From: a virus
DNA length: 64,000 bases
Virus record (IMG/VR): IMGVR_UViG_3300009443_000003
Location: 1 to 64,000 of that record
Reading direction: 5' to 3' (one strand)
The position numbers and the translations under genes were made by a program. Positions within the stretch are counted from its first letter, which is position 1. Each line of letters starts with the position of its first letter. The notes below the pieces were generated by a model. That model ran no database searches. It saw nothing but the letters and a program-made list of their open reading frames with translations, and was not told the origin of the DNA. Of this stretch, positions 28,697 to 59,751 are shown one piece after another.

Positions 28697-30211
28697 GTGG
28701 AACTTACACTAACGGAAAATAAACAGCTATTACGAATTGACTCGGCTACAGACATGGAGCTCGAGCAACTCAACATATCCTTAAATAAGAGGATTGAATC
28801 ATGGCGTTTTAACCCGTTGGTAAAGAAAGGTCTTTGGGATGGCTACATCTCATATATTAAAGACGATACGTGGATCCCGTCAGGCCTATGGCGTGAAGTT
28901 ATGTTGATTGCTAAAGATTATAACTATGATCTAAAACTGAACGGCATCACTGAACTATTTGACCGCAACATTCAACAAGAGGCTTTTGAAGAATGGGCGT
29001 TAGACTTTTTTGACGGTCACCCAGACGGTATCTCACCTAGAGACTATCAGATGGACGCAGCTTTTAACATCCTAAAATTTAGGCGCTGTTTAGCAGAGCT
29101 GGCTACATCAGCCGGTAAGACCTTAATCTCATTCTTGACTGTGGCTTATACGTTAGAGAAGCAGAAGGCCGAGAAGATACTCTTTATTGTACCTAACGTT
29201 TCGCTTGTAGTTCAAGCATCTGAAGACTTCTTAGATTATAACTGGCAAAACAGAGTTAGTATTAAAGTACAGCAGATCTACAGTGGCCAGAAGATTAGAG
29301 CTGGGCGTAATGTTGTGATCGGCACATACCAGTCGCTTGTTAAGAAGAAGGCTGAGTACTTCGATCAGTTTGATGCAGTTATCATTGACGAGACACATAA
29401 AGCTAAGTCACAGTCCATTAAAACCATTCTATCTAAGTGTAAGAATGCAGACTATAGATTCGGACTATCAGGTACGATCCCTAAACCAGGTTCATTGGAC
29501 CGATTAACCTTAATGTCACATACAGGCCCTGTAATTACAGAGGTGACTGCCAATTACCTACAGAATGAAGGTCACATTGCTAAATGTAATGTAAAGGTAA
29601 TTAAGATGGACTATGCTACTGAGTCTACAAAAGAGGCTTTTAGAGAGATGGCATTCAATAAATATGAAAGCAAAGATGTCTTTAAATTTGAACAAAATTA
29701 CGTTATCAATTCGCCAGGTAGGCTCAACTTTATTTGTAACGTTATTTCCAGAATACCACGCAATTCCCTTGTACTTTTCCACCGCATTGAACATGGTCAG
29801 CGTATTTATGAGAAATTGCGCCAAGAGAGTGACAAACGGGTCTACTATGTCGACGGCGGTACCGATAAAGATATTCGCGAAGAATACAAGAAGAAGATGG
29901 AGGCGGGTGAAGAAGTGGTGATTGTAGCCTCTTATGGTACATTTTCGACCGGTATTTCAATTAAAAAGATCCATAACATATTCTTTACAGAGTCGTTTAA
30001 GTCTGAAGTTATCATTCGCCAGTCGATTGGTCGAGGGCTTAGACAACACTCTTCAAAAGACTCAGTTAACATTATAGATTTTGTAGATGATATTAGTCTG
30101 CCGGACTGGGATAACTACCTGATTCGACATGCTAAAGCTAGACAGAAGATCTACAAGGAACAGAAGTTCAAGTACGATATTAAAAACGTCACTTTTGAAG
30201 GTGATATATAA
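28697..30211 (+). CDS. uvsW: UvsW-like recombination helicase
   Basis: A 504-residue superfamily 2 helicase; T4 UvsW is 587. Walker A is at about residues 136-142 (ATSAGKT), the DEAH-type box reads DETH at 231-234, motif III reads GLSGT near 255, and motif VI is RQSIGRGLRQ near residue 440. The N-terminal 110 residues form the UvsW-type DNA-binding domain. It unwinds R-loops and branched DNA and helps switch from origin- to recombination-dependent replication. The start is a GTG at 28697, five bases after the UvsY stop; it is the only start giving the full N-terminal domain. The GATATATA motif at its 3' end is a promoter for the next gene. Confidence 0.88.
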   Translation: MELTLTENKQLLRIDSATDMELEQLNISLNKRIESWRFNPLVKKGLWDGYISYIKDDTWIPSGLWREVMLIAKDYNYDLKLNGITELFDRNIQQEAFEEWALDFFDGHPDGISPRDYQMDAAFNILKFRRCLAELATSAGKTLISFLTVAYTLEKQKAEKILFIVPNVSLVVQASEDFLDYNWQNRVSIKVQQIYSGQKIRAGRNVVIGTYQSLVKKKAEYFDQFDAVIIDETHKAKSQSIKTILSKCKNADYRFGLSGTIPKPGSLDRLTLMSHTGPVITEVTANYLQNEGHIAKCNVKVIKMDYATESTKEAFREMAFNKYESKDVFKFEQNYVINSPGRLNFICNVISRIPRNSLVLFHRIEHGQRIYEKLRQESDKRVYYVDGGTDKDIREEYKKKMEAGEEVVIVASYGTFSTGISIKKIHNIFFTESFKSEVIIRQSIGRGLRQHSSKDSVNIIDFVDDISLPDWDNYLIRHAKARQKIYKEQKFKYDIKNVTFEGDI

Positions 30212-30213
30212 TA
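30203..30213 (+). promoter_or_regulatory. Putative late promoter, GATATATAATA
   Basis: GATATATAATA spans the stop codon of the uvsW gene and lies 35 bases before the ATG of the first head-type protein of the next cluster. It marks a plausible switch from the replication block to a late-expressed block. Confidence 0.45.
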
Positions 30214-30248
30214 CTGTAATAACAAATTTAAAAACAAAGAAACATATA

Positions 30249-31814
30249 ATGGAACGATTAGTAACATTTGAACAATTTGCTGAGCAAAAGGCAAAAAAAG
30301 ATCAGGTTCAACTTGAGGAAGAGTTGAATGCAAAAAGGGAAGCTTCAGCAAATAGCTTTAAGGACTTATTATCTGAATTCGGTGTAACTTCAATGAGTGA
30401 ATTATCTGAAGAAGATAAGCCTAAATTTAACGAGAGATTAGGTACTTTAACAGAATCTGCACTATTGCTAGAAGGCACAAGATCTCAAGTAGGGAAGATC
30501 GATAAGAAAGGTAGGATTACATCGGTCTATGTACACTATGATGGTTATCCAGACCACATGGTACCAATGATTAAGAACTACGACAAGAAAGGTGTTGACC
30601 AACTAGTTAAACTAGGTAAGTCTGGTATCTCATATTTAGACAAGAATATCGGTAAAAAGCAAGACTTTAATAGTCCAGTAAGGGGAACCACTCTATTCTA
30701 CGGTAGAGATCGCGGAGAGAACAAAGATATGACTACTACATGGACCAACGCAGCTGACATTAAAGGTTACTTTAAAGAAGTTGCTAACGACGGTGGAGCT
30801 GAATACGTTTATCTATATGATGAACGAGATGGAAAGTGGTACATGGGAGATACTTATGGTAGCCCTGTATTACAAGTAGTTGAATCAGTAAACGAGGCTG
30901 TTATTGCAATCAGTGGTAAGAGAACAGCCAAGAAAGTAGCTTTAAGACTAACCAGATTATTTGATACCAAGTTAACAGCTCTTGCTGCGGATAAAGTAAC
31001 AATGCTAGGCTTCTTGAAAGAGTTATATTTCTATGCAATGGAAGACGCTAACTTTTCACGCGAGGCCAATGTGACAATGAACATGATTAAGGGTAAGATT
31101 AGCCCGCTAGAAGTTAAAGTAGAAGGCTTGGATGGTGAAGTTATTAGAATTTCAGCTAAGACGATAAAAACTATAGCAGACAAATACTACTCAGATCTTG
31201 CAAATGCAGGTGATTGGTCAGGTATTGGTATTACTGAAGGTTTTGCAATGTACTTAGATCAAATCGGAGAGTCTAACATGGCACAAGCACTTCTTGACTC
31301 TTTTAATGCACAGTTTGAAGGTGAAGAGAAAAGAGTTTCTAGAACTGAAAAGCTTTATGAATTATCACAGAGATTAGAATCTACCAATGAGGCTAAAGAA
31401 TCAGTAAACGAAGCTAAATACGATAAGAAGAAGCTTTTAAAGTTAATCAAGAATCATGATGATGCTGAAATCCTAGTTAATGGAAAATGGTACATCATCT
31501 ATAATCCAGATAACGGTAATGACGAAAACACAGATATGTGGAATGACGATTCAGTATTTGCATTAGATCAAGATGGTGAAGAGTTTGAAATCAATTACAA
31601 AGATATTGAGCATTTTAAAGAGTCTGTTGAAGTAAACGAGACTGAAATTAAATCTGATGATGAATTCAAAGAATATGCATTCACAATACTTCAAAAAGCA
31701 TTTGGAGCAGACTTTGATGAAGCAAAAGCGCAAGAAGTTGTCGATGGTATCTTAGGTAAAGTTGATGGCGATTATGGTAAGGCTGCAGGTATTTTGCAAA
31801 GCTCACTTGGCTAA
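30249..31814 (+). CDS. Capsid-targeted polyprotein-like internal head protein
   Basis: A 521-residue protein. The start at 30249 is chosen over an upstream in-frame ATG at 30129 that lies inside uvsW, because it follows a promoter motif and begins with a capsid-targeting-like peptide (MERLVTFEQFAEQ). Three acidic linkers with V-x-E or T-x-E sites occur at about residues 212-218 (ESVNEAV), 378-391 (STNEAKESVNEAK) and 458-466 (ESVEVNETE). They divide the protein into an N-terminal domain with a VHYDGYPDHMVP motif seen in other phage proteins, a helical domain and two small C-terminal domains. Processing by a prohead protease into several packaged proteins is an inference from these sites. Confidence 0.65.
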   Translation: MERLVTFEQFAEQKAKKDQVQLEEELNAKREASANSFKDLLSEFGVTSMSELSEEDKPKFNERLGTLTESALLLEGTRSQVGKIDKKGRITSVYVHYDGYPDHMVPMIKNYDKKGVDQLVKLGKSGISYLDKNIGKKQDFNSPVRGTTLFYGRDRGENKDMTTTWTNAADIKGYFKEVANDGGAEYVYLYDERDGKWYMGDTYGSPVLQVVESVNEAVIAISGKRTAKKVALRLTRLFDTKLTALAADKVTMLGFLKELYFYAMEDANFSREANVTMNMIKGKISPLEVKVEGLDGEVIRISAKTIKTIADKYYSDLANAGDWSGIGITEGFAMYLDQIGESNMAQALLDSFNAQFEGEEKRVSRTEKLYELSQRLESTNEAKESVNEAKYDKKKLLKLIKNHDDAEILVNGKWYIIYNPDNGNDENTDMWNDDSVFALDQDGEEFEINYKDIEHFKESVEVNETEIKSDDEFKEYAFTILQKAFGADFDEAKAQEVVDGILGKVDGDYGKAAGILQSSLG

Positions 31815-31835: not shown

Positions 31836-33119
31836 ATGAGAAAATTACTTTCATATCAAGAATTTTTAGTTGAGAAAGCATCTGCTCCGGTAGATGCAAA
31901 TCTCATTCTAGAGGGCGGTGCAGCTGGTCATATGTCGCATCCGTTCGACGAAAAAGAATTGACATTTGGTGACTTTAAAAAGATCGTTGAGTTTGGCTTA
32001 AGAGGCGAACTTAACTTTGAAGAAGAAGTTACCGAAAAGACCGACGGACAAAACTTATTTGCAACTGTAATGGATGGTGAGGTTAAATTTGCCAGAGGTA
32101 TTAATGATATGAGGAATCCAATGGATCTAAAAACTTTTAAACAAAAGTTTGAAGCACATAAAAGTCCACTAGTAAGAGATACTTTTCAATTCGCAGCAGA
32201 AGATTTAGCAAATTCATTAAATAAGCTACCAGCAAAAGACTTAGAGGTTTTTAATAATGGTAAGAGTTTTATGAATATGGAGCTAATCTACTCGAAGAAC
32301 CCAAATGTAATTTATTACGACAGGGATGTTATTCAATTCCATGGTATTAAACATACTGATGGTGATGGTAATGAAATAGGAGATGAAACAAAATACGCAG
32401 CATCAATTGCAAAGGTTCTTAAAGACCTTAAACTTGATATGGGTAAAACATTTTCAATTATCCCACCACAAATCATTAAAATGGGTAAGGATATTGACTT
32501 CGATGCAAACAAAGCTAAATTCCTTAAACAAATTGAAGATCTACGTAAACAGTACAACTTAACAGATGCTGATGAAGTTTCTATGTATCATGAAATGTGG
32601 TGGAGAGAAACTATCGATAAGAACTTTCCGGATCTAACACAAGATCACAAAGAAGGACTTTTATTAAGATGGGCGTATGATGATAAGAAGACTCTTAATA
32701 TAAGAAGTCTTGATAAAGAGTTAGGTAAAGATAAAGCTGCTCTAATTAAAAAGTTTGACAAAGAAGATGTAAAGAAAAAACAAAAAGAGAACATGAGACC
32801 TTTTGAAGATTTATTTCTTGAACTAGGTAGTGTTATCTTAAAGAACGCATCTAACTTTGTGGCTGCTAATCCAGCTGCAGAAATGCAGAGACTACAAAAG
32901 CAATTAAAAGATGAAGCGGAAGCAGTTAGAAAAAGCGGTGATGTTTCGGACATTGAAAAAGTTGCTAAAGAACTTGAAAGACTTGAAAGAATCGGAGGTA
33001 TCGAATCAATTATACCAACAGAGGGTATTGTCTTTAGATACAAAGGCAAGACTATGAAGCTAACAGGAACATTCGCTGCAGTTAACCAGCTTATGGGTTT
33101 TATAAAATACGGTAGATAA
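31836..33119 (+). CDS. Ligase-like nucleotidyltransferase with capsid-targeting-like N-terminus
   Basis: A 427-residue protein. It begins MRKLLSYQEFLVEKA, like a capsid-targeting peptide with a candidate LVE-K cleavage site. It then carries the motifs of covalent nucleotidyltransferases (DNA/RNA ligases): motif I EKTDG with nucleophile Lys68, and near the C-terminus EGIVFRYKGKTMKLTG (residues 396-411) covering motifs IV and V. The region between holds a charged helical insertion (about 310-385). It would seal or adenylylate nucleic acid ends, or be a divergent member without that activity. Homologous proteins with the same targeting peptide are known from T4-like marine phages (recollection). 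Packaging in the head is an inference. Confidence 0.65.
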   Translation: MRKLLSYQEFLVEKASAPVDANLILEGGAAGHMSHPFDEKELTFGDFKKIVEFGLRGELNFEEEVTEKTDGQNLFATVMDGEVKFARGINDMRNPMDLKTFKQKFEAHKSPLVRDTFQFAAEDLANSLNKLPAKDLEVFNNGKSFMNMELIYSKNPNVIYYDRDVIQFHGIKHTDGDGNEIGDETKYAASIAKVLKDLKLDMGKTFSIIPPQIIKMGKDIDFDANKAKFLKQIEDLRKQYNLTDADEVSMYHEMWWRETIDKNFPDLTQDHKEGLLLRWAYDDKKTLNIRSLDKELGKDKAALIKKFDKEDVKKKQKENMRPFEDLFLELGSVILKNASNFVAANPAAEMQRLQKQLKDEAEAVRKSGDVSDIEKVAKELERLERIGGIESIIPTEGIVFRYKGKTMKLTGTFAAVNQLMGFIKYGR

Positions 33120-33129
33120 AACATAACAC

Positions 33130-34974
33130 ATGGCATTACAAAACCTTAAGACATATTTTGAGTCGACTAACAGAAACGACTTCATGCAACTTCTAGAAAA
33201 CACATGCGTTGTTTCTGAGAAGATTCAAGCATCCTCATTCCACGTTAGAAAAACTAACAGCGGTTTTGAGTATTATAAGAGCGGTTCTAAGGACGCAATG
33301 AACAAAGTTGATAGAACTATTGTAAAGTACTATGAAAATGCCATCAAGTACTTTAAATCAATTTCTGGTGACATTGCTGAACAGATGCCAACTGACTGGA
33401 AGTTTGGCTTTGATTATATGGTTGATAAGAAGACTGTAGACATTGAATACGACAAGCTACCAAAGAACCACCTGATCTTAACGCATATTCAGGTGATGAG
33501 TCCTAGCAATCCTACTGAAATCAAGAAGGTGGTTAGAGACCCAAACATTCTTTACAAGTGGGCAGATATTCTAAGCGTACAGAGACCTCAAGTTATTTTC
33601 CAAGGTAAATTGTCAGACTACCAGAAAGAAGATTTGGTTAAACTTTTAGAAATGAGCGAAACTCAATTCAAGAAAGAGTTTACAGACGCTTCTTTTACTA
33701 GAAAGATCTATAATATCTTTAATAAAGGCTTGAACTCAACAGGTCTTAATCTAGATTTAGAAAAAGACATTGACTCTTTAATCTTAAACTTCTTTGACGG
33801 TAAGTCAGTTAAGAACTTTAAGCTTGAGAGATTTGACAAGGCTGAAAGAGACAGCCGCAATCCATCTGACATGTATCAGATCTCAATCTTAGATCTAGTA
33901 GAATACATCTCACAATACGATATTCCTAGCATTGAACTTAAAGAAGATGATACCGACATAAGGTACATCGAACTTATTTCAATCCTATTTAACTCATATG
34001 TAGAAAAGCACGCAACAAAATATATTGGTGCTAGCTTTGACTCAGCAGACTTTGCACAAGGCGAAGAGTTTGCACTCAATACTACATTTATTAAAAACGA
34101 AAAGACACTATCACTGGTTCAGAAAGATGTTCTAGCAGAGCTTTACAAGATTGCGCTGGGTTCATTTAGAAAGAAGAGAACTAAAGAGACTGATATTATC
34201 AACGCTGCTTTAATGGAGCAGATCAACGAGATCGTTGCTAAGATTGAAGCTCTAGTGATGGGCGAAACAAACGAAGGCGACGTTATGAACTTCAACACCT
34301 ATCTAAAGACACAGAATTTACAAACACAAGTAAGCCCAATTACTGAAGCATTAACTGTTAAATATGCTGAACAAGGCAAGAAGCCTGTTAACATGTTCGT
34401 GGGTAGATTTCAACCATTTACGCTTGGACATGCTAAAGTGATTGAGACGATTAGTAAGCAGAATGGATTCCCAGTAGTTATTTTTCTAGTAAAGGCAAAA
34501 GCTAAAAAGAAAGAAGATGCTTTTAAGAGACCTTATGATGAAGATCTACAGATTGAGATGCTAAACAAATTAAAGTCAAAGTACCCAATTAAGGATGTAT
34601 ATGTAATTGAAGGTTCTGCTGGAATTGATAAAATGTTTAATGCAATGAGAGGCGATGGATATGAACCAGTCCTTTGGGGAACAGGAACCGACAGGATGAA
34701 AAACTATGGATTTCAAGTAAACAATCAACAATACAGAGAGGATCTAGGAGTTAGAGCAGACTTTGGCCTGTTTGAGATTCCAAGAACCGGCAAGAATATT
34801 TCAGCAACGCAGGTTAGAAACGCAATGCTAGATGGTGACGAGAAGCTCTTTAAGAAGCTAACTCCGAAAGAGATACATTCTATGTATGGTGATTTAAAAG
34901 ACAAACTAGAGGCCTCAATGGCAACTAATGAGTCAACCATTATGACCTTCGATCAATTTACAAAGAATATATAA
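33130..34974 (+). CDS. Fusion of an RNA-ligase-like domain and a cytidylyltransferase-like (NMNAT type) domain
   Basis: A 614-residue protein. The N-terminal part contains EKIQASSF (Lys31) and FGFDYMVDKK near residue 95, resembling motifs I and III of Rnl2-type RNA ligases. A clear EG-x-V motif IV was not found, so activity is doubtful. The C-terminal 190 residues form a nucleotidyltransferase of the HxGH class: GRFQPFTLGH at residues 425-434 and ISATQVRNAM at about 557-566, as in NadM/NadR NMN adenylyltransferases. The extreme C-terminus (TIMTFDQFTKNI) copies the form of a capsid-targeting peptide. It sits between head-type proteins, suggesting packaging or co-expression with them. The substrate is not known. 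Confidence 0.7.
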   Translation: MALQNLKTYFESTNRNDFMQLLENTCVVSEKIQASSFHVRKTNSGFEYYKSGSKDAMNKVDRTIVKYYENAIKYFKSISGDIAEQMPTDWKFGFDYMVDKKTVDIEYDKLPKNHLILTHIQVMSPSNPTEIKKVVRDPNILYKWADILSVQRPQVIFQGKLSDYQKEDLVKLLEMSETQFKKEFTDASFTRKIYNIFNKGLNSTGLNLDLEKDIDSLILNFFDGKSVKNFKLERFDKAERDSRNPSDMYQISILDLVEYISQYDIPSIELKEDDTDIRYIELISILFNSYVEKHATKYIGASFDSADFAQGEEFALNTTFIKNEKTLSLVQKDVLAELYKIALGSFRKKRTKETDIINAALMEQINEIVAKIEALVMGETNEGDVMNFNTYLKTQNLQTQVSPITEALTVKYAEQGKKPVNMFVGRFQPFTLGHAKVIETISKQNGFPVVIFLVKAKAKKKEDAFKRPYDEDLQIEMLNKLKSKYPIKDVYVIEGSAGIDKMFNAMRGDGYEPVLWGTGTDRMKNYGFQVNNQQYREDLGVRADFGLFEIPRTGKNISATQVRNAMLDGDEKLFKKLTPKEIHSMYGDLKDKLEASMATNESTIMTFDQFTKNI

Positions 34975-34993: not shown

Positions 34994-37438
34994 ATGGCAA
35001 CAGTAACAATGGACGCAATGGACCCTAAATCAAAAGGTCTAGCCAAACTACTTAAGAAGAATAAAGTAAAGATGGAGATCTTAACGATGAGAGGCCCTTC
35101 AGGCTGGCCTGAGGTTGAACTAACTGGTAAGAGAGAAGATCTTGAAACAGTTTTAGCCGACGGTGAATATGGTTGGGATGACCCAGAATTAGCTGAGTAC
35201 ATTGAAGAAAGTGCTGATGTTAATGAGGCAAAGATCACTCTCAAGAGACGTTACACTGAGAATCATCCAGCAGTTACAGTTGGTAAAGCAGCTCGTATCA
35301 GAAATAAAATGCTCGAAGCAATTGCTGACGGAGCCCTTACTGAAGAAGAGTTTAACAATATCTTAAGCGAATACTCTGCAAACGCAAAACAGTGGATGAA
35401 GAGAAACGCTAGATTCTTTAACGTATCTGAAGAAGGTATTGCACTTTCTAAGTTTGGTAAGAAAGCGCTTTCTGCAGTTGTAGTTAACGAAGAAGAATCA
35501 GTTACTGAATCAGAAGCTGAAAACATTTTAGACGATCTTTTAGATGAGAGAGGCGGAGATATGGGAGAATTACATGGAATGGAAATGGAAGATGCATTAG
35601 ATACAGTCGAAGCATACGGACATAAAGGTTCTAAAGCAAAAAAGATTGCACAGGAATTACATTCTTTATGTAACGAATCAACAGTTACTGAAGCTAAATT
35701 CGTAAAAGATTTTAATAGAGATGTTTTAAACGCGAAAACAAAAGAAGAAGTTTTAGAGCTTTATCCAAACGCTGAATTCTTTATCGGTAAATCAGATCAT
35801 TTCTTTGGAGAGTTTGATGAAAATTTATTCTTTAAAGCATACTATACAAAAGGACAAAAAGAATTTGAAATCAAATCAGTTTATTCTGAAAAAGGAAGCA
35901 ACTATGTTCATTTATACAATGAATCAGTAGTTACTGAAAACTATGAAGTTATCTATAGTGATGGTGTAAGTGCTATGAAAAAATTCAGAAATGAAAAACA
36001 AGCTCTTGACTTCATGAAGCAAACCATTGCTTCTAATAAAAAACTAAGGGATATTGCAGTTTACAAACCAGGAATGTATTCAACAACTCAAACTGAATTA
36101 GTTGTCTCTTTTTGGGGAAATGGTTCTTACTTAGACAACGTTTCTAAGAAAGATCCTAAACTAGCGGCTAAAAAATTAGAGGAATCAGAGTATGTTGAAG
36201 AAGGTCGTAAGTTTGTAGCTGCTGCCAAGAAAGCTAAAGATGCTGGTGACGAAGAGTTTGAATTTAACGGCAAGAAGTTCCCGGTGACTATTAAAGAAGG
36301 AAATGCATTTGGTGCAGCAAGAGCTAAAGCAATTGCTGATGGTAAAGATGAGTTTACAGTTGACGGAGAAACTTACAAGGTAAAATCAGTTGACAAAGAA
36401 GACAAAGAGAACGCTGAAGAATTTAAAGGTGAGTCTTTTATCATCGAGTCTTTCTCTAAGTTTGTAGAAAGCCTTAACGAGTCTGAAATGCTTACAGAAG
36501 CATTCAAGTCAATGAAGCTTGCACAACTGCTAACACCTAAGAAGAAAACAAACTGGGATAAAGGTCTTGCTCAAGAGTTCTATAACTACACTCAAGTTAA
36601 ACTAGATAAGGTTGAAGACCACGACCTGTTAGAAATAGATCCACAGACTGCTTACAAGCAAAAAGGTGGTACTAAAGTAAAGTTCTTCTTAATCGACAAC
36701 GAAAAGCAGAGTCCTTACACTGACGATAACTCTGACGGTAGAATCCAACCAGGACTAATTGCAGTCTTAAACGGTAACAATGATTTTATGGGAGCTGTTT
36801 ATAAAAGATTTAGCAATGAAAAAGGTAGAGTCTTAACTAAAACTGATAAAGCGGATTCACTTGGTGTTGACAAGAGAAGAAAGGGCTACGGCGCTACTGG
36901 ACTTTCAAGTGCTAAGAGAATTGCTGACTTTGCAGATAGAGCAATCGTAATCGATATTGACATCTTAAGACAGAGATATTCAGCTCAACAACAAAAAGAT
37001 TCAAGAACTGCTGCTAAGAAAGGAGCTATTGCATTTAAGACGGACAAAGAGTTTAAAGCTGAGAATATCGCAAGATACAACGAGATCTTAGCTAATAAGG
37101 CTGCAGCACTGCCACTTGATAAAATGGTTAAAGGTGCAATCGACAAACTCGCTGATCAGATTAAAGAAGGTGTAGCTAAAGGCGAAAAAGGACGTTACGG
37201 CGACATTATCATTGGTAAAAACTCAAAAGGCCGCGAAGCTAAAATGAGAGATGCTTCTAACCACATGAGCAATATCCTAGATGACTATGGCAGATATGTA
37301 CAATATATTGCTGATGGTGAAAAGGAGAAAGAAGACTGGGGTGAAGAAAACTCATACTACGCTAGAGAGGCAAAAACATATGCTAAGAACATTAAAGACA
37401 AGATCAACCAGATTGATACCTTTGATTATGCTTGGTAA
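34994..37438 (+). CDS. Multi-domain polyprotein-like internal head protein
   Basis: An 814-residue protein divided by repeated acidic linkers with a hydrophobic-x-Glu site: residues 71-79 (EESADVNEA), 165-172, 227-234 (NESTVTEA), 309-315 (NESVVTE), 396-403 (EESEYVEE) and 480-502 (ESFIIESF, then NESEMLTEAF). Between them are small domains, among them a DUF-like segment at about 404-470 (KFVAAAKKAKDAGDEEFEF) and a 310-residue C-terminal domain rich in Lys and Asp. The linkers match the (I/L/V)-x-E pattern cut by the T4 prohead protease. The start lacks the usual targeting peptide, but the internal FSKFVESLNE resembles one. No enzymatic motif was recognised. Confidence 0.65.
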   Translation: MATVTMDAMDPKSKGLAKLLKKNKVKMEILTMRGPSGWPEVELTGKREDLETVLADGEYGWDDPELAEYIEESADVNEAKITLKRRYTENHPAVTVGKAARIRNKMLEAIADGALTEEEFNNILSEYSANAKQWMKRNARFFNVSEEGIALSKFGKKALSAVVVNEEESVTESEAENILDDLLDERGGDMGELHGMEMEDALDTVEAYGHKGSKAKKIAQELHSLCNESTVTEAKFVKDFNRDVLNAKTKEEVLELYPNAEFFIGKSDHFFGEFDENLFFKAYYTKGQKEFEIKSVYSEKGSNYVHLYNESVVTENYEVIYSDGVSAMKKFRNEKQALDFMKQTIASNKKLRDIAVYKPGMYSTTQTELVVSFWGNGSYLDNVSKKDPKLAAKKLEESEYVEEGRKFVAAAKKAKDAGDEEFEFNGKKFPVTIKEGNAFGAARAKAIADGKDEFTVDGETYKVKSVDKEDKENAEEFKGESFIIESFSKFVESLNESEMLTEAFKSMKLAQLLTPKKKTNWDKGLAQEFYNYTQVKLDKVEDHDLLEIDPQTAYKQKGGTKVKFFLIDNEKQSPYTDDNSDGRIQPGLIAVLNGNNDFMGAVYKRFSNEKGRVLTKTDKADSLGVDKRRKGYGATGLSSAKRIADFADRAIVIDIDILRQRYSAQQQKDSRTAAKKGAIAFKTDKEFKAENIARYNEILANKAAALPLDKMVKGAIDKLADQIKEGVAKGEKGRYGDIIIGKNSKGREAKMRDASNHMSNILDDYGRYVQYIADGEKEKEDWGEENSYYAREAKTYAKNIKDKINQIDTFDYAW

Positions 37439-37541: not shown

Positions 37542-38030
37542 ATGAAACATGTAAAATTATTCGAACAATTTCTAAATGAGGATGTTAAAGTTAAAGGTAA
37601 TATCTCAGAAGAAACAGCTAATGAATTGCTTGATTTTCTAAAACGGGCTATCGGTAAAAAATTAAACTGGAAAGAATTTTCAAAATGGCATGGTGGAGCT
37701 GCTCAATTAGGTAAAAAATCACCAGCACAAAAAAAGTTCTTAGAAGCCAATTATGAATGCGAGATTGTAGATGTTACAATGCGCTACTTACCTAAGTATA
37801 AAAATGCTCAGTATTCAGTGTCATATCTACAAAATACATCATGGCATGGCTCTCCGCATGTCAAAGAAGCGCCACTTTTATTATATAAAGATGATCCTAA
37901 TTGGACACCAGAGGAAGGCGATACTAAAGATAGGGCTTTAGAAAAAAGTCTTGAAAGGTACCATGACGAAAGGCAATGGGACAGATTTTCAGATATAACT
38001 AGAATAGGTCGATTCACGCCCTATTTATAA
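37542..38030 (+). CDS. Small capsid-targeting-type protein
   Basis: A 162-residue protein starting MKHVKLFEQFLNEDV, a textbook form of the capsid-targeting-like peptide used by this phage, with a candidate cleavage LNE-D after residue 13. The remainder contains a Trp/His-rich region (WKEFSKWHGG, then NTSWHGSPHV) and a charged C-terminus. It is preceded by 103 bases of A/T-rich sequence containing ATATTTAC at 37490-37497, possibly a promoter. No function beyond probable head localisation can be read. Confidence 0.6.
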   Translation: MKHVKLFEQFLNEDVKVKGNISEETANELLDFLKRAIGKKLNWKEFSKWHGGAAQLGKKSPAQKKFLEANYECEIVDVTMRYLPKYKNAQYSVSYLQNTSWHGSPHVKEAPLLLYKDDPNWTPEEGDTKDRALEKSLERYHDERQWDRFSDITRIGRFTPYL

Positions 38031-38059: not shown

Positions 38060-38818
38060 ATGCCAAGTACTTCAAAAGCACAACAGAGACTAATGGGAAT
38101 GGCTTACGCTTATAAAAAGGGTGAGCTTGATGCCAAAGAGGCTAGCCAGGAGGTAAAAGACCTAGCAGACTCTATGACATTAAAGCAGCTTAAGAAGTAT
38201 GCTGCAACAAAACATGAAGGACTACCAGACAAAGTGGACGACAATCTTCAACCAGGAGATGTTGGTGGAATGGGACCAATCAAATTCCCAACAGCAACTG
38301 AGACCGGTTCTGGTGATGTTCCTGCAGGCCAAGGCGATGCAGAAGAAGAATATAAAAAGAAACGTAGAAAAATGAAACACTTAAAGAACTTTGAACAGTT
38401 TATCAATGAATCTCAATTCGCTGATGATAGTACTTCTAATCAAGATGCTAAGTTAAGGCTAAAAGAACGTACAGAACTAACAAAAAAATTAATTAAGGCA
38501 ACCGGGATTACAACATGGGAAGTAGACTATAGCCATGGTTTTTTTACCATGAATACAAAGACTAAAGGAAATACCGGAACTGAAATATTTGGAATAAAAG
38601 ATTTGGATTATAGTTTTACTTGGAGAATTCTTAACTCTGACGATTATGAACCATTGGCACCAAAAGAAATGCAGATAGTCGCACAACCAACAGACGGCAG
38701 CGGAGGTCGTACCAAACGCAATTGGTATGTAACAAAAGGTAATGTTGCTACAATTGATGATGTTATAAAAGCAATGTCAAACTTAGAGGTAGGTAAATCT
38801 GGTTGGAAACAAGCATAA
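38060..38818 (+). CDS. DUF3008-like domain fused to a capsid-targeting-type protein
   Basis: A 252-residue protein. Residues 1-58 (PSTSKAQQRLMGMAYAYKKG, ending KHEGLPDKV) match the small phage/bacterial domain of unknown function DUF3008. A Gly/Pro-rich acidic linker leads at residue 105 to MKHLKNFEQFINES, an exact capsid-targeting-like peptide that would be a normal protein start (ATG 38372) in its neighbours. The last 130 residues form a small beta domain. Either the gene is a fusion of two older genes or a second protein is made from the internal start. Both the fused peptide and the adjacent genes point to a head-localised protein. Confidence 0.65.
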   Translation: MPSTSKAQQRLMGMAYAYKKGELDAKEASQEVKDLADSMTLKQLKKYAATKHEGLPDKVDDNLQPGDVGGMGPIKFPTATETGSGDVPAGQGDAEEEYKKKRRKMKHLKNFEQFINESQFADDSTSNQDAKLRLKERTELTKKLIKATGITTWEVDYSHGFFTMNTKTKGNTGTEIFGIKDLDYSFTWRILNSDDYEPLAPKEMQIVAQPTDGSGGRTKRNWYVTKGNVATIDDVIKAMSNLEVGKSGWKQA

Positions 38819-38835
38819 AACAATAAAATAAAAAA

Positions 38836-39249
38836 ATGAAACACTTAAAGAACTTTGAATCCTTTCTTAATCCAGGATCTGAAAACGCAGTTTATGAAAA
38901 AATAAAATTCGGATCTTACTACTTTAATAAAGGACAATTTAGTGAATTCGATCTACCTGCTAAAGGAGAAACTGCATATGCTTTGATTGCACATAATACC
39001 GTTGAGGTTAACAAACAATCCATGTATTTAAGATCTGAAGGAGATATGAACATTGGTGCTGGATTTAGACCTACGGTACTTGCCGTTGCTGAAGATGAAG
39101 CATCGATTAAAGCAGCATATGATACACAACTAAAAGTTGGAGGAACTGGTGCAAATCTTTCTTTCTCATATGGGACTATTACAGTTAAGGGTAATAATGT
39201 ACCATTTACAGAGATTGGCGGCCATTTGGCAAAAGGAAATATAAAATAA
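38836..39249 (+). CDS. Small capsid-targeting-type protein without the cleavage Glu
   Basis: A 137-residue protein starting MKHLKNFESFLNPG. The first 24 bases of the gene are identical to those at the internal start 38372, but the usual Glu of the LNE site is replaced by Pro-Gly, so protease cleavage may be lost. The rest is beta-rich with a FSYGTITVKG segment near the end. It sits 17 bases after the preceding gene and 4 bases before the next. It may be an uncleaved internal protein. Function unknown. Confidence 0.6.
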   Translation: MKHLKNFESFLNPGSENAVYEKIKFGSYYFNKGQFSEFDLPAKGETAYALIAHNTVEVNKQSMYLRSEGDMNIGAGFRPTVLAVAEDEASIKAAYDTQLKVGGTGANLSFSYGTITVKGNNVPFTEIGGHLAKGNIK

Positions 39250-39253
39250 AAAA

Positions 39254-39772
39254 ATGAAACATCTAAATAACTTTGAATCTTTCGTAAACGAATCATATGA
39301 CGGTAACATGTCAGACTTTAAATATGAGTTTCCAATGAAGTTTGAAGAAGTAACAGGTAATCCAGAAAAAGCTATCAAGAGAATCACTAAGAGCGGTAAA
39401 GGTTATGAAGTTAGAACCTCAACTTACATGAGTGAAGACGAAATGAAAGCTGTTGGTGCTGCAATGAACTTGGATCTAATCAGTTATAACAAAGGTAGCA
39501 ACGTTGCAATTACAGTTTATGAGTCTAAAGTCAACGAAGAATACATTGAACTTCCAAGTCTTGATGTACCTGCAACTGAATTGATTGATGCATTTAGACA
39601 ATGGTATAAAGACACCGCAGATAACTGGGAAGACTTTAAAGAAGACATGGCTGAAGATTCAGTTGATGAAGCAGCTAAGAACGCACAGATGGAAATCTTA
39701 GCTCACCTTTCTAATGAGATGAATGACATTATCAAAGACAGAAAATTTAAGGTTAGAGCAGACTTCAAGTAA
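39254..39772 (+). CDS. Small capsid-targeting-type protein
   Basis: A 172-residue protein starting MKHLNNFESFVNESYDG, with a candidate VNE-S site, and a second site-like VNEEY near residue 96. The body contains a beta-rich domain to about residue 90 and an acidic helical C-terminal half ending in a Lys/Arg-rich tail. It is the last gene of the capsid-targeting cluster and is followed by a strong terminator. A role as an internal head protein is inferred from the N-terminal peptide and the cluster. Confidence 0.6.
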   Translation: MKHLNNFESFVNESYDGNMSDFKYEFPMKFEEVTGNPEKAIKRITKSGKGYEVRTSTYMSEDEMKAVGAAMNLDLISYNKGSNVAITVYESKVNEEYIELPSLDVPATELIDAFRQWYKDTADNWEDFKEDMAEDSVDEAAKNAQMEILAHLSNEMNDIIKDRKFKVRADFK

Positions 39773-45483: not shown

Positions 45484-46887
45484 ATGCTATTAGACATTGA
45501 GCAGAAAGAAAATGAAGTAATCGTCAGCTACTACGATAAGAAAGGCGAAGTTTCATTTAAACGCTATCGCGTAGATAACTTTGAGAATTGGACAGTAGCT
45601 GAAGATAACGACAGATACAGAGACCAAAACTTTAAAAACTGGGACGGCAGAGCAATCAAACGCAAACGCTCAAGAACTTACAACAAATTCAGTCTACTCT
45701 ATTTTATGGACTCTCTGCCTGAAGCAGATAGAGAAGAGATCTTTGCATTCAACATGCCAAGAACATACTATGTCGATATTGAGACTGAGATTGTAGATGG
45801 CTTTCCAAGACCAGAAGAGGCTAAGAGTCGTATCTTAACTTTTTCGATCATTACACCAGAACGTAAAGCAATTGTACTTGGTCTAGATGACTTGAATGCA
45901 GAACAGATCAAGAAGATTGAAGATGACACTAACGCTCACTTCAAGAACTACGATCAAGACTGGACTTTTAGCTACTACAAGTTTAAGAATGAGTATGATA
46001 TGCTCTATAACTTCTTGCACAAGTTCTTGCCTAAGTTTCCAATGATGACCGGCTGGAACTTTATCAACTATGACTGGCAATATATTGTTAATCGCTGTAA
46101 GAGGCTACAGATTGATCTAACTGAAGTTGCAATCACAGGAGCACTAGACAAAAAAGACTCAAGACCATTACACATGGGTATTCTTGACTATATGCAGCTC
46201 TATGATAAGTATGATCGTTCGGTTGCGGTAAAAGAGTCTAACAAACTTGACTTTGTGTCAAGCCAAGTCTTGAATGTGGCCAAGATTAAATACACAGGTT
46301 CACTGCAAGATCTTTACGAGAACAACTTTCAAAAATATGTTTACTATAACGTAGTTGACTCTGTGTTGGTTTATTATATTGACCAACAGTTAAAGTCAAT
46401 GGAAGTCCTACTGACCTTATCAACTATTACTAAAATGCCACTCTATAAAGCAGCCAGCCCCGTTGCAGTAACAGAGTCTTTAATTGCAAGAAAGCTTGCA
46501 GAAGACAACGTTAAGATCGGCGTTGAGTATGACAAAGAGGACAGTAAGAAAGACGGTCAGTATGAAGGTGCTTTTGTAAAACAACCAATTGTTGGTTATT
46601 ACTCAGGAGTAAGTGCATTTGACTTTGCATCACTGTACCCATCGGTGATGAGGCAGTTTAATATCTCGCCGGATGCTTTCATTGAAATTGTACCGGAAGC
46701 TGAAATTGCCGAGCGCAGAAAAGATAATAACGTAATCGTTTGCGAGAACGGAGTTGTCTATAAAAAGGAAGATTCAATCCTAAAAAAGATCCTCAGCGAT
46801 CTATATGCACAAAGAAAGGAATACAAGAAGGCTTCATATGCTTATTATGAAAAAGCACATGAACTTCAAAAAAAATTTAGGCTCTAA
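45484..46887 (+). CDS. 43: DNA polymerase, N-terminal part (exonuclease and palm motif A)
   Basis: A 467-residue family B polymerase fragment. It contains the three exonuclease motifs: Exo I DIETE (Asp98, Glu100), Exo II near WNFINYD (about residues 190-200) and Exo III YNVVDSV (about 286-293). It also contains polymerase motif A DFASLYPS (residues 380-387). It ends about 60 residues after motif A (YKKASYAYYEKAHELQ) with a normal stop. Motifs B and C are missing and are found in the gene at 50807, so the two must combine to make an active gp43. The reading frame is intact; the split is a gene arrangement, not a frameshift. No intein residues were seen at the break. Confidence 0.9.
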   Translation: MLLDIEQKENEVIVSYYDKKGEVSFKRYRVDNFENWTVAEDNDRYRDQNFKNWDGRAIKRKRSRTYNKFSLLYFMDSLPEADREEIFAFNMPRTYYVDIETEIVDGFPRPEEAKSRILTFSIITPERKAIVLGLDDLNAEQIKKIEDDTNAHFKNYDQDWTFSYYKFKNEYDMLYNFLHKFLPKFPMMTGWNFINYDWQYIVNRCKRLQIDLTEVAITGALDKKDSRPLHMGILDYMQLYDKYDRSVAVKESNKLDFVSSQVLNVAKIKYTGSLQDLYENNFQKYVYYNVVDSVLVYYIDQQLKSMEVLLTLSTITKMPLYKAASPVAVTESLIARKLAEDNVKIGVEYDKEDSKKDGQYEGAFVKQPIVGYYSGVSAFDFASLYPSVMRQFNISPDAFIEIVPEAEIAERRKDNNVIVCENGVVYKKEDSILKKILSDLYAQRKEYKKASYAYYEKAHELQKKFRL

Positions 46888-50806: not shown

Positions 50807-52015
50807 ATGGATATAAAAGAGTTAGAAAATAAACCAATAGATCAATTGACTGATGCTGACGCTAAGCTGCTTGTAGATCACTACAAGCAGCTTTCAGCAA
50901 AGTATACAGCTTATGAGCAGGCGGTTAAGTTAACTCTTAACTCGATCTACGGAGCCTTTGGTAACAAATGGTTTCACTTCTTCAATATCGACATTGCAGA
51001 GTCAATTACAAAACAGGGTAAGAATGCTATTCTCTACTCAGAGTCAATCTTGAACAAATATGTTCAAGAATTTTGGCATAAAGACACTGCAGTTCACGAG
51101 CAATTCGGTATTAAAGTAAAGGGTAAAATAGAGAAGCCAGCTGTAATCTACATCGATACTGACTCATGTTACGTTCAGTTTCAAGATGTTTATGAGTCTA
51201 TCATCTGGGAAGATGAAAGTAAGAAGATGTCAATTGACGAGTTTATCTTAGCACTTTATGGCTTTAGACTTAATAATTATATTGTTAAGTGTATGGAGAT
51301 GTACGCTGAGAAACGTAATACTGATAACTTCTTAATGTTTGAGCTTGAGACTATTGCATATAATGGTATCTGGATGAGCAAGAAGAAGTACATTCAGAAT
51401 ATTGCATGGGACGATAAACTAGAGAAGACCGATCGACATGCGCCTCTGAAAAAGATTAAGACGATTGGATATGATACTATTCAATCTTCAACACCAGCAT
51501 TTGTAAGAGCAAAACTAGTTGAAGCACTTAAAATTATATTTAAGAGTGCTAAAACACCAAGTGCTGAAGAATTACAAGAACTTGTTCAATTCATGAAGCA
51601 GGTCAGAAAAGAGTTCCAGCTTGCAGATATTGACGAGATCTCATTTAACAGAAGGACAAACAATATTGAGAAATATATTGTTGACGACCAGATTGAATTT
51701 CAAGTTGGTCTAAAATGTCCGGCCAATGTTAAAGCAGCAGGTTACTACAACTACCTGCTTAATATGAACTCTAAATTTAAAACAAAGTATAAAGTAATTG
51801 GTAACGGTGAGAAGCTAAAGATCTACAACTGTAAGAGTCCAATCAGTGAAGTTTATGCCTATCTACCAGGTGAACATCCTTATGAGTTTGCACCAGAGAT
51901 AGACTACGACACTCAGTTTGAAAAGGCAATGATTGACCCGTTAAACAGAGTACTTACAGCAATCGGTCTACAGACACTTGACACTAATCTACTTTATGCA
52001 TCAGCACTATTTTAA
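50807..52015 (+). CDS. 43: DNA polymerase, C-terminal part (fingers, palm motifs B and C, thumb)
   Basis: A 402-residue protein. Motif B (KLTLNSIYG, residues about 41-50) and motif C (YIDTDS, about 114-120) of family B polymerases are present, together with the thumb region. Motif A and the exonuclease are in the gene at 45484, about 3.9 kb upstream. The first 35 residues (LENKPIDQLTDADAKLLVDH) are not typical polymerase and may be a subunit-docking extension. The C-terminus ends in SALF, similar to a clamp-binding tail. It must pair with the N-part to work. Separation by nrdB, nrdA and gp45 shows a stable rearrangement. Confidence 0.9.
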   Translation: MDIKELENKPIDQLTDADAKLLVDHYKQLSAKYTAYEQAVKLTLNSIYGAFGNKWFHFFNIDIAESITKQGKNAILYSESILNKYVQEFWHKDTAVHEQFGIKVKGKIEKPAVIYIDTDSCYVQFQDVYESIIWEDESKKMSIDEFILALYGFRLNNYIVKCMEMYAEKRNTDNFLMFELETIAYNGIWMSKKKYIQNIAWDDKLEKTDRHAPLKKIKTIGYDTIQSSTPAFVRAKLVEALKIIFKSAKTPSAEELQELVQFMKQVRKEFQLADIDEISFNRRTNNIEKYIVDDQIEFQVGLKCPANVKAAGYYNYLLNMNSKFKTKYKVIGNGEKLKIYNCKSPISEVYAYLPGEHPYEFAPEIDYDTQFEKAMIDPLNRVLTAIGLQTLDTNLLYASALF

Positions 52016-58398: not shown

Positions 58399-59751
58399 AT
58401 GCACTTTTTAGATTTTAATAGCTTTCTTAACGAAGCGCAAGTAATGAAAACTACGGGCATGTTTGACGCTAAGTTAGACAAGGCTGCAGATGTTATCATG
58501 GCATACTTGAACAAGAAGACTGGCGATGACTACAAGAAATTCCCATACATTTTAGTACACAGAATTGACGGTGCTGAAGATCCAGGTATCATGCTCTACT
58601 CTAATAAGTCTGACAAGGCTGTTAGAATCGGTGGTCAAAGTAAAGGACCTGGTATTGTAGGTTCTCTTGCTTTTTACTCAAAGCACTATACTGAAGTTGC
58701 TGACTTCATGGTTACTTCAGATCAGTTTCCAATCGTTAAATTAATTGATGAGTTTGTTAGACTGATGGATGCTAAATACGTTAAGCAGATTGCAGAATCA
58801 TATGATGCTCTTAACGAAGCTGCTTCAGACTATGCATTTAGCCAGGCTGAAATCAATGAGATTAATAAGCTTCTAGACAAGAAGATGCCGGTAACTAAGA
58901 TTGCTAAGAAGATGGATATTCCATATAGATCAGTCTTAAAGGTAAAGCGTAATATTTCTTCTGGTGAAGTTAAATCTAACATGGAAGTTAAAAACGAACA
59001 GACTCTTGATGATAAAGTGAAGTTCTTAGAGGAAACCATTGAAGACATCTATCAAATCTCAAGAAAAGTTGCAGCAGGTGCATTCAACTCACTCTTTATT
59101 TCAGGCCGAGCAGGTACTGGTAAAACATACAACGTTGAAAAAGCAATGCAAGATGAAGGTCTTGAAGAAGGTGAAGACTGGATATTGGTTTCAGGTGCAG
59201 CATCACCAATTATGATGTTCAAGAAGTTCTATCAATTTAGAAATAAGACTCTAGTCTTTGATGATTGTGACTCGGTATTTAGAGATGAGAATGGCCGTAA
59301 CATGCTTAAAGCAGCTCTTGATACTAAAGCTGTTAGAAAGATTAGCTGGATGAAGAAGTCTTCAATTGTATTTGACCCAAAAGATTTTGAAAATAACCCA
59401 GAAGCAGAATTTAACGCGCTAGAATCAGGTCTTGTACCAAACAAATTTGAATTTGCAGGTCGTGTAATTTTTATCTCTAACTTAGAGAAAGAGAAAGCAG
59501 ATCCAGATGGCGCAATTCGTTCTAGATCGATCCTAATTGATGTGGCACCAGATGATGCTACATTAATGGAGCGTATGAAGAAGTTACTTCCTTATCTAGA
59601 ACCAACTGATATGCCAGTGAACGAGAAAGAGGAGATCTATGAGTTCATGAAGAATGCAGGTGATGTTTCAATGAGAACATTCGTAAAAGCTGCAGGCTTT
59701 AAAAGAGCAGGTCTTTCTGACTGGCAAAGAATGGCACAGAGATACTTATAA
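58399..59751 (+). CDS. AAA+ ATPase with capsid-targeting-like N-terminus and HTH segment
   Basis: A 450-residue protein. Residues 1-14 (MHFLDFNSFLNEAQ) match the capsid-targeting-like peptide with an LNE-A site, and YDALNEAASDY near residue 135 is a second candidate linker. Residues about 150-180 form a helix-turn-helix (MPVTKIAKKMDIPYRSVLKV). The AAA+ domain follows with Walker A GRAGTGKT (about 236-243), Walker B LVFDDCDS (about 285-292) and an IRSRSILID sensor region near 375. It could remodel DNA or proteins. Processing at the linkers could release the ATPase from the head-targeted part. Neither function nor substrate is known. Confidence 0.65.
   Translation: MHFLDFNSFLNEAQVMKTTGMFDAKLDKAADVIMAYLNKKTGDDYKKFPYILVHRIDGAEDPGIMLYSNKSDKAVRIGGQSKGPGIVGSLAFYSKHYTEVADFMVTSDQFPIVKLIDEFVRLMDAKYVKQIAESYDALNEAASDYAFSQAEINEINKLLDKKMPVTKIAKKMDIPYRSVLKVKRNISSGEVKSNMEVKNEQTLDDKVKFLEETIEDIYQISRKVAAGAFNSLFISGRAGTGKTYNVEKAMQDEGLEEGEDWILVSGAASPIMMFKKFYQFRNKTLVFDDCDSVFRDENGRNMLKAALDTKAVRKISWMKKSSIVFDPKDFENNPEAEFNALESGLVPNKFEFAGRVIFISNLEKEKADPDGAIRSRSILIDVAPDDATLMERMKKLLPYLEPTDMPVNEKEEIYEFMKNAGDVSMRTFVKAAGFKRAGLSDWQRMAQRYL

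Follow-up and report, generated by a model that had tools for sequence, protein, structure and literature searches.

An ORF of 814 residues at positions 34994-37438 (plus strand) of the analysed window, a stretch of 64,000 nucleotides that is part of an 81,151-base IMG/VR virus record, raises the question whether one phage gene can supply several packaged proteins from a single precursor. The answer considered likely is that it encodes an internal-head-protein precursor polyprotein of a T4-like marine phage, targeted to the prohead and cut there by a gp21-family protease into packaged mini-proteins; cleavage and packaging are inferred.

Linkers and modules of the 814-residue ORF

The first-pass annotation had described an 814-residue ORF with six acidic linkers, and this held on checking the sequence, as the ORF contains all six named linker peptides. 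It placed the Glu residues at 78, 171, 233, 314, 402, and 501; positions 78 and 233 were right and the other four were one too low, the P1 Glu residues being 78, 172, 233, 315, 403, and 502. The number of six sites held only in part, as there are at least eight candidates. The two extra sites of the same kind are IKE435↓G (the arrow marks the proposed cut), which sits between two tandem repeats of about 30 aa, and LNE496↓S, which falls within an internal peptide resembling a capsid-targeting sequence (FIIESFSKFVESLNESEMLTE, residues 482-502). The ORF begins with MATVTMDAMDPKSKG and has no N-terminal capsid-targeting peptide (CTS); its CTS-like peptide is the internal one. The parts are as follows.

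34994-35227, plus strand: module A, residues 1-78, a beta-alpha-beta-beta-alpha mini-domain with candidate cut DVNE78↓A at its end
35228-35509, plus strand: module B, residues 79-172, ending with SVTE172↓S
35510-35692, plus strand: module C, residues 173-233, helical, ending with TVTE233↓A
35693-35938, plus strand: module D, residues 234-315, ending with VVTE315↓N
35939-36202, plus strand: module E, residues 316-403, ending with YVEE403↓G
36203-36298, plus strand: module F1, residues 404-435, an alpha-beta-beta repeat of about 30 aa (sequence and AF2 secondary structure), ending with IKE435↓G
36299-36388, plus strand: module F2, residues about 436-465, a second alpha-beta-beta repeat (sequence)
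36437-36499, plus strand: internal capsid-targeting-like peptide FIIESFSKFVESLNE496↓SEMLTE502↓A, fitting the N-terminal CTS pattern of this genome (MKHLKNFEQFINE↓S and others)
36500-37435, plus strand: domain G, residues 503-814, C-terminal, alpha/beta plus long helices, 312 aa, no assigned function

The loose motif [VLIYM]xE[ASNGF] occurs 15 times in the ORF versus 6.4 +/- 2.4 times in shuffled sequences (P 0.002; 2.3-fold), which taken alone is modest evidence for linkers. The strict linker ES.{0,3}[VIL][TN]E was found five times versus 0.03 expected, a number reached in none of 5000 shuffles, and [VILMY][TN]E 11 times versus 2.0 expected. There are 14 strict linkers in the whole 81-kb record, with five in this ORF, three in the ORF at 30129-31814, and two in a 172-aa ORF at 39254-39772.

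The AF2 model of the full protein has a mean pLDDT of 65 and a pTM of 0.30. Segments with pLDDT below 50 (residues 74-96, 162-170, 229-239, 298-330, 432-436 at the end of F1, and 465-543) cover or flank the cut sites; module A has pLDDT of about 90-96 over residues 1-70 and falls below 50 from residue 74. The annotation had proposed structure prediction as a check of domain boundaries, and in the AF2 model no domain spans a proposed cut, low-confidence linkers lying between small predicted domains. Residues 356-402, including part of module E, are likewise of low confidence in the full-protein model. In the AF2 input alignment, the first 65 or so residues of the G rows were wrongly placed, so the low-confidence stretch 465-543 is weak evidence. 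Domain G modelled alone reached a pLDDT of 75.6. Assigning a function to G from its fold was abandoned, as no Foldseek match in PDB or BFVD had an E value below 0.001 and Pfam, PHROG, and PDB-sequence searches gave no relative. Comparison of the full-length model with PDB was set aside too, with weak matches only (the best at E 0.3 to a 43-aa chain, and several KH-domain chains at E of about 1 or above).

No match to the ORF was found in Pfam, and none to its modules by tblastn in the INPHARED phage collection. No cultured relative of the 814-aa protein or of a divergent domain G was found, nor any matching GTDB genome contig. An identical 814-aa protein is present in a 176-kb record.

Module exchange among relatives

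Scanning IMG/VR yielded 33 loci at first; a further scan, with domain G, returned 136 stretches encoding relatives of this domain, of which 80 were kept. Modules were annotated from 23 seeds, in place of single-linkage clustering, which chained everything into one. The relatives are assembled from recurring modules in varying order, with 65 architectures among the 100 proteins of three or more modules. Module A was found in 40 proteins and 19 neighbour contexts, module B in 63 and 17, module H in 46 and 15, and module G in 68 and 16, respectively. The motif [VIL][TN]E is 28-fold denser at junctions than in module interiors (405 in 16,129 residues versus 44 in 49,224, or 25.1 versus 0.89 per 1000 aa). 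Among unrelated architectures, and without use of the seeds, 42% of BLASTP block ends are within 8 aa of a linker or CTS site, versus 10.5% for random positions (500-replicate maximum 14.5%). These endpoints are not independent, as many of the proteins are related, and the effect size was relied on, not a P value. The linkers thus separate interchangeable modules. A Pfam search of five modular relatives gave no matches, or only weak ones below the cut-off.

Single modules of the 814-aa ORF illustrate the exchange. Copies of module C, 87-95% identical in aa, occur inside J-P-C-... proteins of other phages, with DNA homology from nt 507 of the ORF (nine bases before the E172 codon ends at nt 516) to just beyond E233. 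Module D is 94.7% identical in DNA, from linker to linker (nt 682-945), to the J-P-E-H-F2-D-Z-I protein of locus L152. Module E has 14 copies in 10 contexts, with 84-94% identity in proteins of other architectures, and the F modules differ in number and position between relatives.

At the internal ESVV[TN]E linkers the codons are near-fixed as GAA TCA GTA GTT ACT/AAT GAA, beyond the codon usage of the same proteins: Ser is TCA in 44 of 53, the third-position Val GTA in 39 of 42, and the fourth-position Val GTT in 45 of 46. The resulting 18-bp DNA, GAATCAGTAGTTACTGAA, holds the inverted repeat TCAGTA-GT-TACTGA, as before E315 (window 35921-35938). Between unlike architectures, DNA homology begins no more than 30 nt from the Glu codon of a linker in 57% of cases and ends there in 36%, versus 12% at random. 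At G boundaries and N-terminal CTS sites the codons are near background and the residues are conserved. In the codon test, conservation as a pure by-product of shared DNA held for the ESVV[TN]E linkers and failed at G boundaries and CTS sites. It is inferred that modules are exchanged through recombination in the linkers, with the peptide kept by selection for processing.

Proposed cut sites, targeting peptides, and the prohead protease

In T4, gp21 cleaves at L/I-X-E and CTSs bring proteins to the core (PMC9026906). The equivalence of linker and CTS cut site is shown here by modules that come after either. Module B follows a linker in the 814-aa ORF (SADVNE↓AKITLKRR) and an N-terminal CTS in many relatives (MKKFEEFIGE↓GKITLKRR and MNFQDFINE↓GKKITLKRR; for example MKKFEEFIGE↓GKITLKRRYTENHP); relatives starting with module B do carry an N-terminal CTS. 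Three phages encode module U as a gene of its own (MKHIKLYEEFTSELNE↓AVNAS, MKHIKLFEQFIGE↓AVNPA, and MKHVQLFEQFVDGTNSTVNE↓NKYAK), and elsewhere it lies within polyproteins. Domain G in other phages has N-terminal MKHIHLFEAFVTSQKLNE↓A in place of the internal targeting peptide. Stand-alone genes of both kinds were located.

L034:11821 and L153:6927: CTS followed by module U
L016:11807, L134:8200, L097, and L111 (two): CTS followed by domain G

The two G-domain genes of L111 (5944-8015) are in tandem, each with its own CTS.

Residue-level conservation of the sites is likewise shown. Of 50 distinct G boundaries, all have L, V, or I at P3, 46 have N or T at P2, and 47 have E at P1; in the other three the pattern slipped out of register, the rows reading VLNE↓K, ILNE↓K, and YITE↓A. 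The information content at P3, P2, and P1 reaches 3.2, 3.3, and 4.0 bits, respectively, versus 0.6-1.9 bits at P4-P24, and the upstream sequence varies between an internal CTS (FESFSSFVESLNE), ESVVNE, and unrelated sequences. By analogy with T4 gp21, conserved P3-P1 in variable surroundings resembles a protease site. The motif is present in all distinct upstream sequences of modules B (40 of 40, as [VILMYFA]xE), C (8 of 8), D and E (13 of 13 each), F1 (29 of 29), F2 (18 of 18), and U (7 of 7), and in 24 of 25 for H and 37 of 44 for I. Counts were low for T (2 of 5) and K (1 of 2), with the motif just beyond the tested window in some printed cases (AINE↓KSYD, VVTE↓AKSK). The 0 of 31 for module A is a window artefact, as the printed examples read LNE↓ATV, LCE↓ATV, and VLE↓ASV.

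The protease gene itself is present. The T4-type head genes of the record encode the portal, the major head protein, the large terminase, and a 734-aa protein in which a head-maturation protease is fused to a coiled region resembling a scaffold. Peptidase_S77 was recognized at G000:65714-66073 (E 2.2e-14; 48.9 bits versus the Pfam cut-off of 27) and in seven of nine records searched. In PHROG the protease matches head maturation protease (2.3e-43), and T4-type genes for major head protein, portal, and terminase are in its neighbourhood; by sequence it also matches the T4 gp21 structure 5jbl. Two putative catalytic residues were looked at, and GELDHP (H73) and SSRAAG (S129) align with T4 gp21 positions, the crystallised chain having Ala at the expected His. 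This Ala is an inactivating mutation in the crystallised T4 gp21 chain.

65660-67864 of the 81-kb record (L043:2161-4365): protease-scaffold fusion ORF, with a copy of module A after an NENLVTE junction

Through this second copy of module A in the genome, a polyprotein module is physically part of the prohead core protein. The site LYE↓[DN]A is found in the major capsid proteins of G000, G004, and LR756500, where the propeptide cut is expected. By major capsid protein, the record is closest to a 462-kb huge phage (51%), Lak phages, and Tenacibaculum phage PTm1; a flavobacterial host is no more than a guess from these capsid proteins. PTm1 was dropped as a laboratory model, having no clear CTS set and no match to the 814-aa protein. 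The 462-kb huge phage with related capsid protein, LR756500 (L175, L176, L177), encodes well over a dozen small ORFs starting with MKYI..YEEFLLE↓ or similar, a sizeable group marked by CTSs.

About a dozen ORFs of the 81-kb record have a T4-like N-terminal or internal CTS, such as MKHLKNFEQFINE↓S, MKHVKLFEQFLNE↓D, and, between portal and protease, MKIYNTFESFIKE↓A. The following ORFs surround the 814-aa ORF.

30249-31814, plus strand: sister modular ORF J-P-H-T-I, with likely start at M41 of ORF 30129-31814 (MERLVTFEQFAEQ...) and three strict linkers
31836-33119, plus strand: CTS-bearing ORF, MRKLLSYQEFLVE↓K
33130-34974, plus strand: NMNAT-type nucleotidyltransferase ORF (Pfam PF01467, 2.4e-7), whose NMNAT domain comes right after a candidate cut, SPITE↓A, and whose C-terminal tail, MTFDQFTKNI, is CTS-like
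37542-38030, plus strand: CTS-bearing small ORF, MKHVKLFEQFLNE↓D
38060-38818, plus strand: DUF3008 domain, then internal CTS MKHLKNFEQFINE↓S (residues 106-118), then a second domain
38836-39249, plus strand: CTS-bearing small ORF, MKHLKNFESFLNPGSENAVYE↓K
39254-39772, plus strand: CTS-bearing small ORF (172 aa), MKHLNNFESFVNE↓S, with second linker ESKVNE

The equivalent of the J-P-H-T-I ORF in other phages holds modules A, C, and D of the 814-aa ORF. No database match was found for ORF 31836-33119. At L007:12354-13181, the same DUF3008 and CTS head is joined to the body of ORF 39254-39772, another exchange at a CTS.

The neighbouring NMNAT-type ORF obeys the site rule of the polyprotein too. 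The motif [ILV]xE↓[AG] lies directly before the NMNAT domain in all 45 distinct long-form relatives listed, with variable P2 (SPITE, SPILE, SPIME, YLNE). A stand-alone gene of about 198 aa, with MKHVKLFEQFINE↓A before the NMNAT-like part, occurs in five loci, and the CTS-like tail of the long form is kept in most relatives (for example MTFDQFIKNI). This pattern, known from sequence alone, suggests a possible virion-packaged enzyme of NAD metabolism with a C-terminal targeting tag; loci of interest are window 33130-34974, L142, L152, L169, L130, and L074. A programmed frameshift joining this tail to the 814-aa ORF was rejected, because relatives with a separate N-terminal CTS retain the upstream tail, which is also conserved in its own right. 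A CTS-bearing ORF at L045:947-1864 has a second CTS inside it and a domain of GNAT acetyltransferase type; it lies in the 176-kb record with the identical 814-aa protein.

Proposed mechanism, rival explanations, and known systems

In the proposed mechanism, the internal capsid-targeting peptide (residues 482-502, and an N-terminal one too in many relatives) would draw the precursor into the prohead core, and the gp21-family protease would cleave C-terminal to Glu at [VIL]-x-E in the linkers. Mini-proteins A, B, C, D, E, and F1/F2 and the 312-aa domain G would be freed, stay in the head, and be delivered with the DNA. Targeting through the internal CTS, cutting, head retention, and injection are each inferred, as is the role of every module, for which the T4 internal proteins suggest, by analogy, that it is probably takeover of the host or counter-defence. 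Whole modules are gained, lost, and swapped across phages, by inference through recombination inside the linkers, and cargo would be altered one module at a time with targeting and processing unharmed.

The first-pass annotation had read the ORF as a polyprotein with prohead-protease linkers. This is supported by the gp21-family protease, the modules behind CTSs with the same cut motif, P3-P1 conservation, and the AF2 linkers, with cleavage still inferred. Its several small packaged peptides are only partly right, as the C-terminal unit is a 312-aa domain and not a small peptide. Its contrast with T4 was overstated, because T4 likewise cleaves gp22, gp67, and gp68 into several pieces and trims Alt at both ends (PMC5694885).

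Several points count against the main reading. Without an N-terminal CTS, packaging of the first 480 residues depends on the internal CTS, a position untested in the T4 work consulted for comparison. The codons of the internal linkers are conserved, so the conservation of their sequence may be in part at the DNA level. T4 gp21 favours L/I at P3, and the internal linkers mostly have V. There is no virion proteomics, and no INPHARED phage matches the modules.

A first rival is that the linkers are recombination joints or flexible spacers only. The protein would then stay whole as a multidomain internal or early 'polyvalent protein', and E-S-V-V-T-E would persist since shared DNA at module ends permits exchange. 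The near-fixed ESVV[TN]E codons and the start and stop of DNA homology between unlike architectures at linkers speak for it. It is nevertheless unlikely, as the G boundary and N-terminal CTS sites keep their [VIL]xE residues despite near-background codons, the F-module, U, B, and NMNAT boundaries retain hydrophobic-x-E with unrelated flanks, the same modules also come after CTS peptides, and a gp21-family protease is in the genome. A second rival, also improbable, is a scaffold or core protein cut as proposed, whose fragments mostly exit the head like those of T4 gp22, gp67, and gp68, with nothing delivered. In its favour, T4 core proteins are cut into many exiting fragments (PMC5694885), the protease-scaffold fusion of the same genome has a module A copy, and the modules are small and acidic. 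Against it, module turnover between close relatives is very high, unlike that of an architectural scaffold, modules also stand alone as CTS genes, in the company of enzymes (NMNAT, GNAT) that carry the same CTS, and the 312-aa G domain is conserved across many phages. An ordinary cytoplasmic multidomain protein with incidental [VIL]xE motifs, for which the loose motif only modestly above chance (15 versus 6.4) could be cited, is very unlikely given the strict linker count (5 versus 0.03), the 28-fold junction enrichment, the CTS equivalence, and the coincidence of block ends.

The precursor-polyprotein reading can be carried further, to a bolder form that could equally well prove right or wrong. 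The linker would be a dual-purpose joint, its peptide a prohead-protease site and its near-fixed 18-bp DNA a place of module recombination. The lineage would keep an evolving cassette array of packaged effectors, one polyprotein unpacked in the prohead, with targeting peptides usable N-terminally, internally, or C-terminally. Such an array is somewhat like an integron, but it would be read as one polyprotein.

Among known systems, T4 IPI-III and Alt share the targeting peptide of MK..F..F[IVL].E type, the hydrophobic-x-E cut after Glu, the gp21-family protease, and T4-type head genes (PMC9026906). They differ in that each internal protein has its own gene and one N-terminal CTS (Alt is cut at the C-terminus too), whereas here one precursor holds several modules, its CTS can lie inside the chain, and phages shuffle modules with one another. 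T4 gp22, gp67, and gp68 are also single chains with many prohead-protease cuts, but their fragments mostly exit, whereas the segments of the 814-aa protein are folded, individually conserved modules, some of them also stand-alone CTS proteins. The ejection and inner-body proteins of phiKZ and SPN3US (proteases gp175 and gp245) are likewise numerous packaged proteins that a gp21-like protease matures by cleavage after Glu, but that protease is S80 versus S77 here, and the cuts known there take off propeptides (PMC10052503). The relevant passages of PMC10052503 describe no array of exchangeable cargo modules for them, and homology to phiKZ-type ejection proteins was tested only indirectly, tblastn against the phage collection giving no match.

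Polyvalent proteins (Iyer et al. 2017; PMC5512222) are combinatorial multidomain phage proteins thought to enter the host with the DNA and often processed. Their trait of several domains in many combinations on one polypeptide is met by the present family, with its 65 architectures in 100 proteins. They bear enzymatic domains that can be recognised, and a zincin-like peptidase serves for their processing (PMC5512222), whereas no known effector, enzymatic, or metallopeptidase domain was found in the 814-aa ORF with Pfam, and processing of the family is assigned, by inference, to the prohead protease at short linker sites. Exchangeable cargo modules on a cut precursor were not described in titles and abstract openings of the phage papers found on both polyproteins and prohead protease, a partial coverage that makes this weak evidence of novelty. 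With cleavage inferred, the system could be considered a previously undescribed form of T4 internal-protein processing.

If true, this would be a general route for phages to diversify injected proteins, modules behind a common cut site being swapped without re-evolving targeting or processing. The sequence rule of CTS plus [VIL]-[NT]-E↓ would read out the packaged proteome of a large uncultivated phage lineage, capsid-related to huge and Lak phages. It would also predict dozens of small unknown proteins delivered at infection, including the NMNAT-type enzyme and, in a close relative, a GNAT acetyltransferase.

Elsewhere in the window, an ATPase-like ORF at 58399-59751 (PHROG 1250, unknown function) has the N-terminal CTS MHFLDFNSFLNE↓A. 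Judged by eye, a family B DNA polymerase may be split in two between the ORFs at 45484-46887 and 50807-52015, which are separated by genes similar to those of ribonucleotide reductase.
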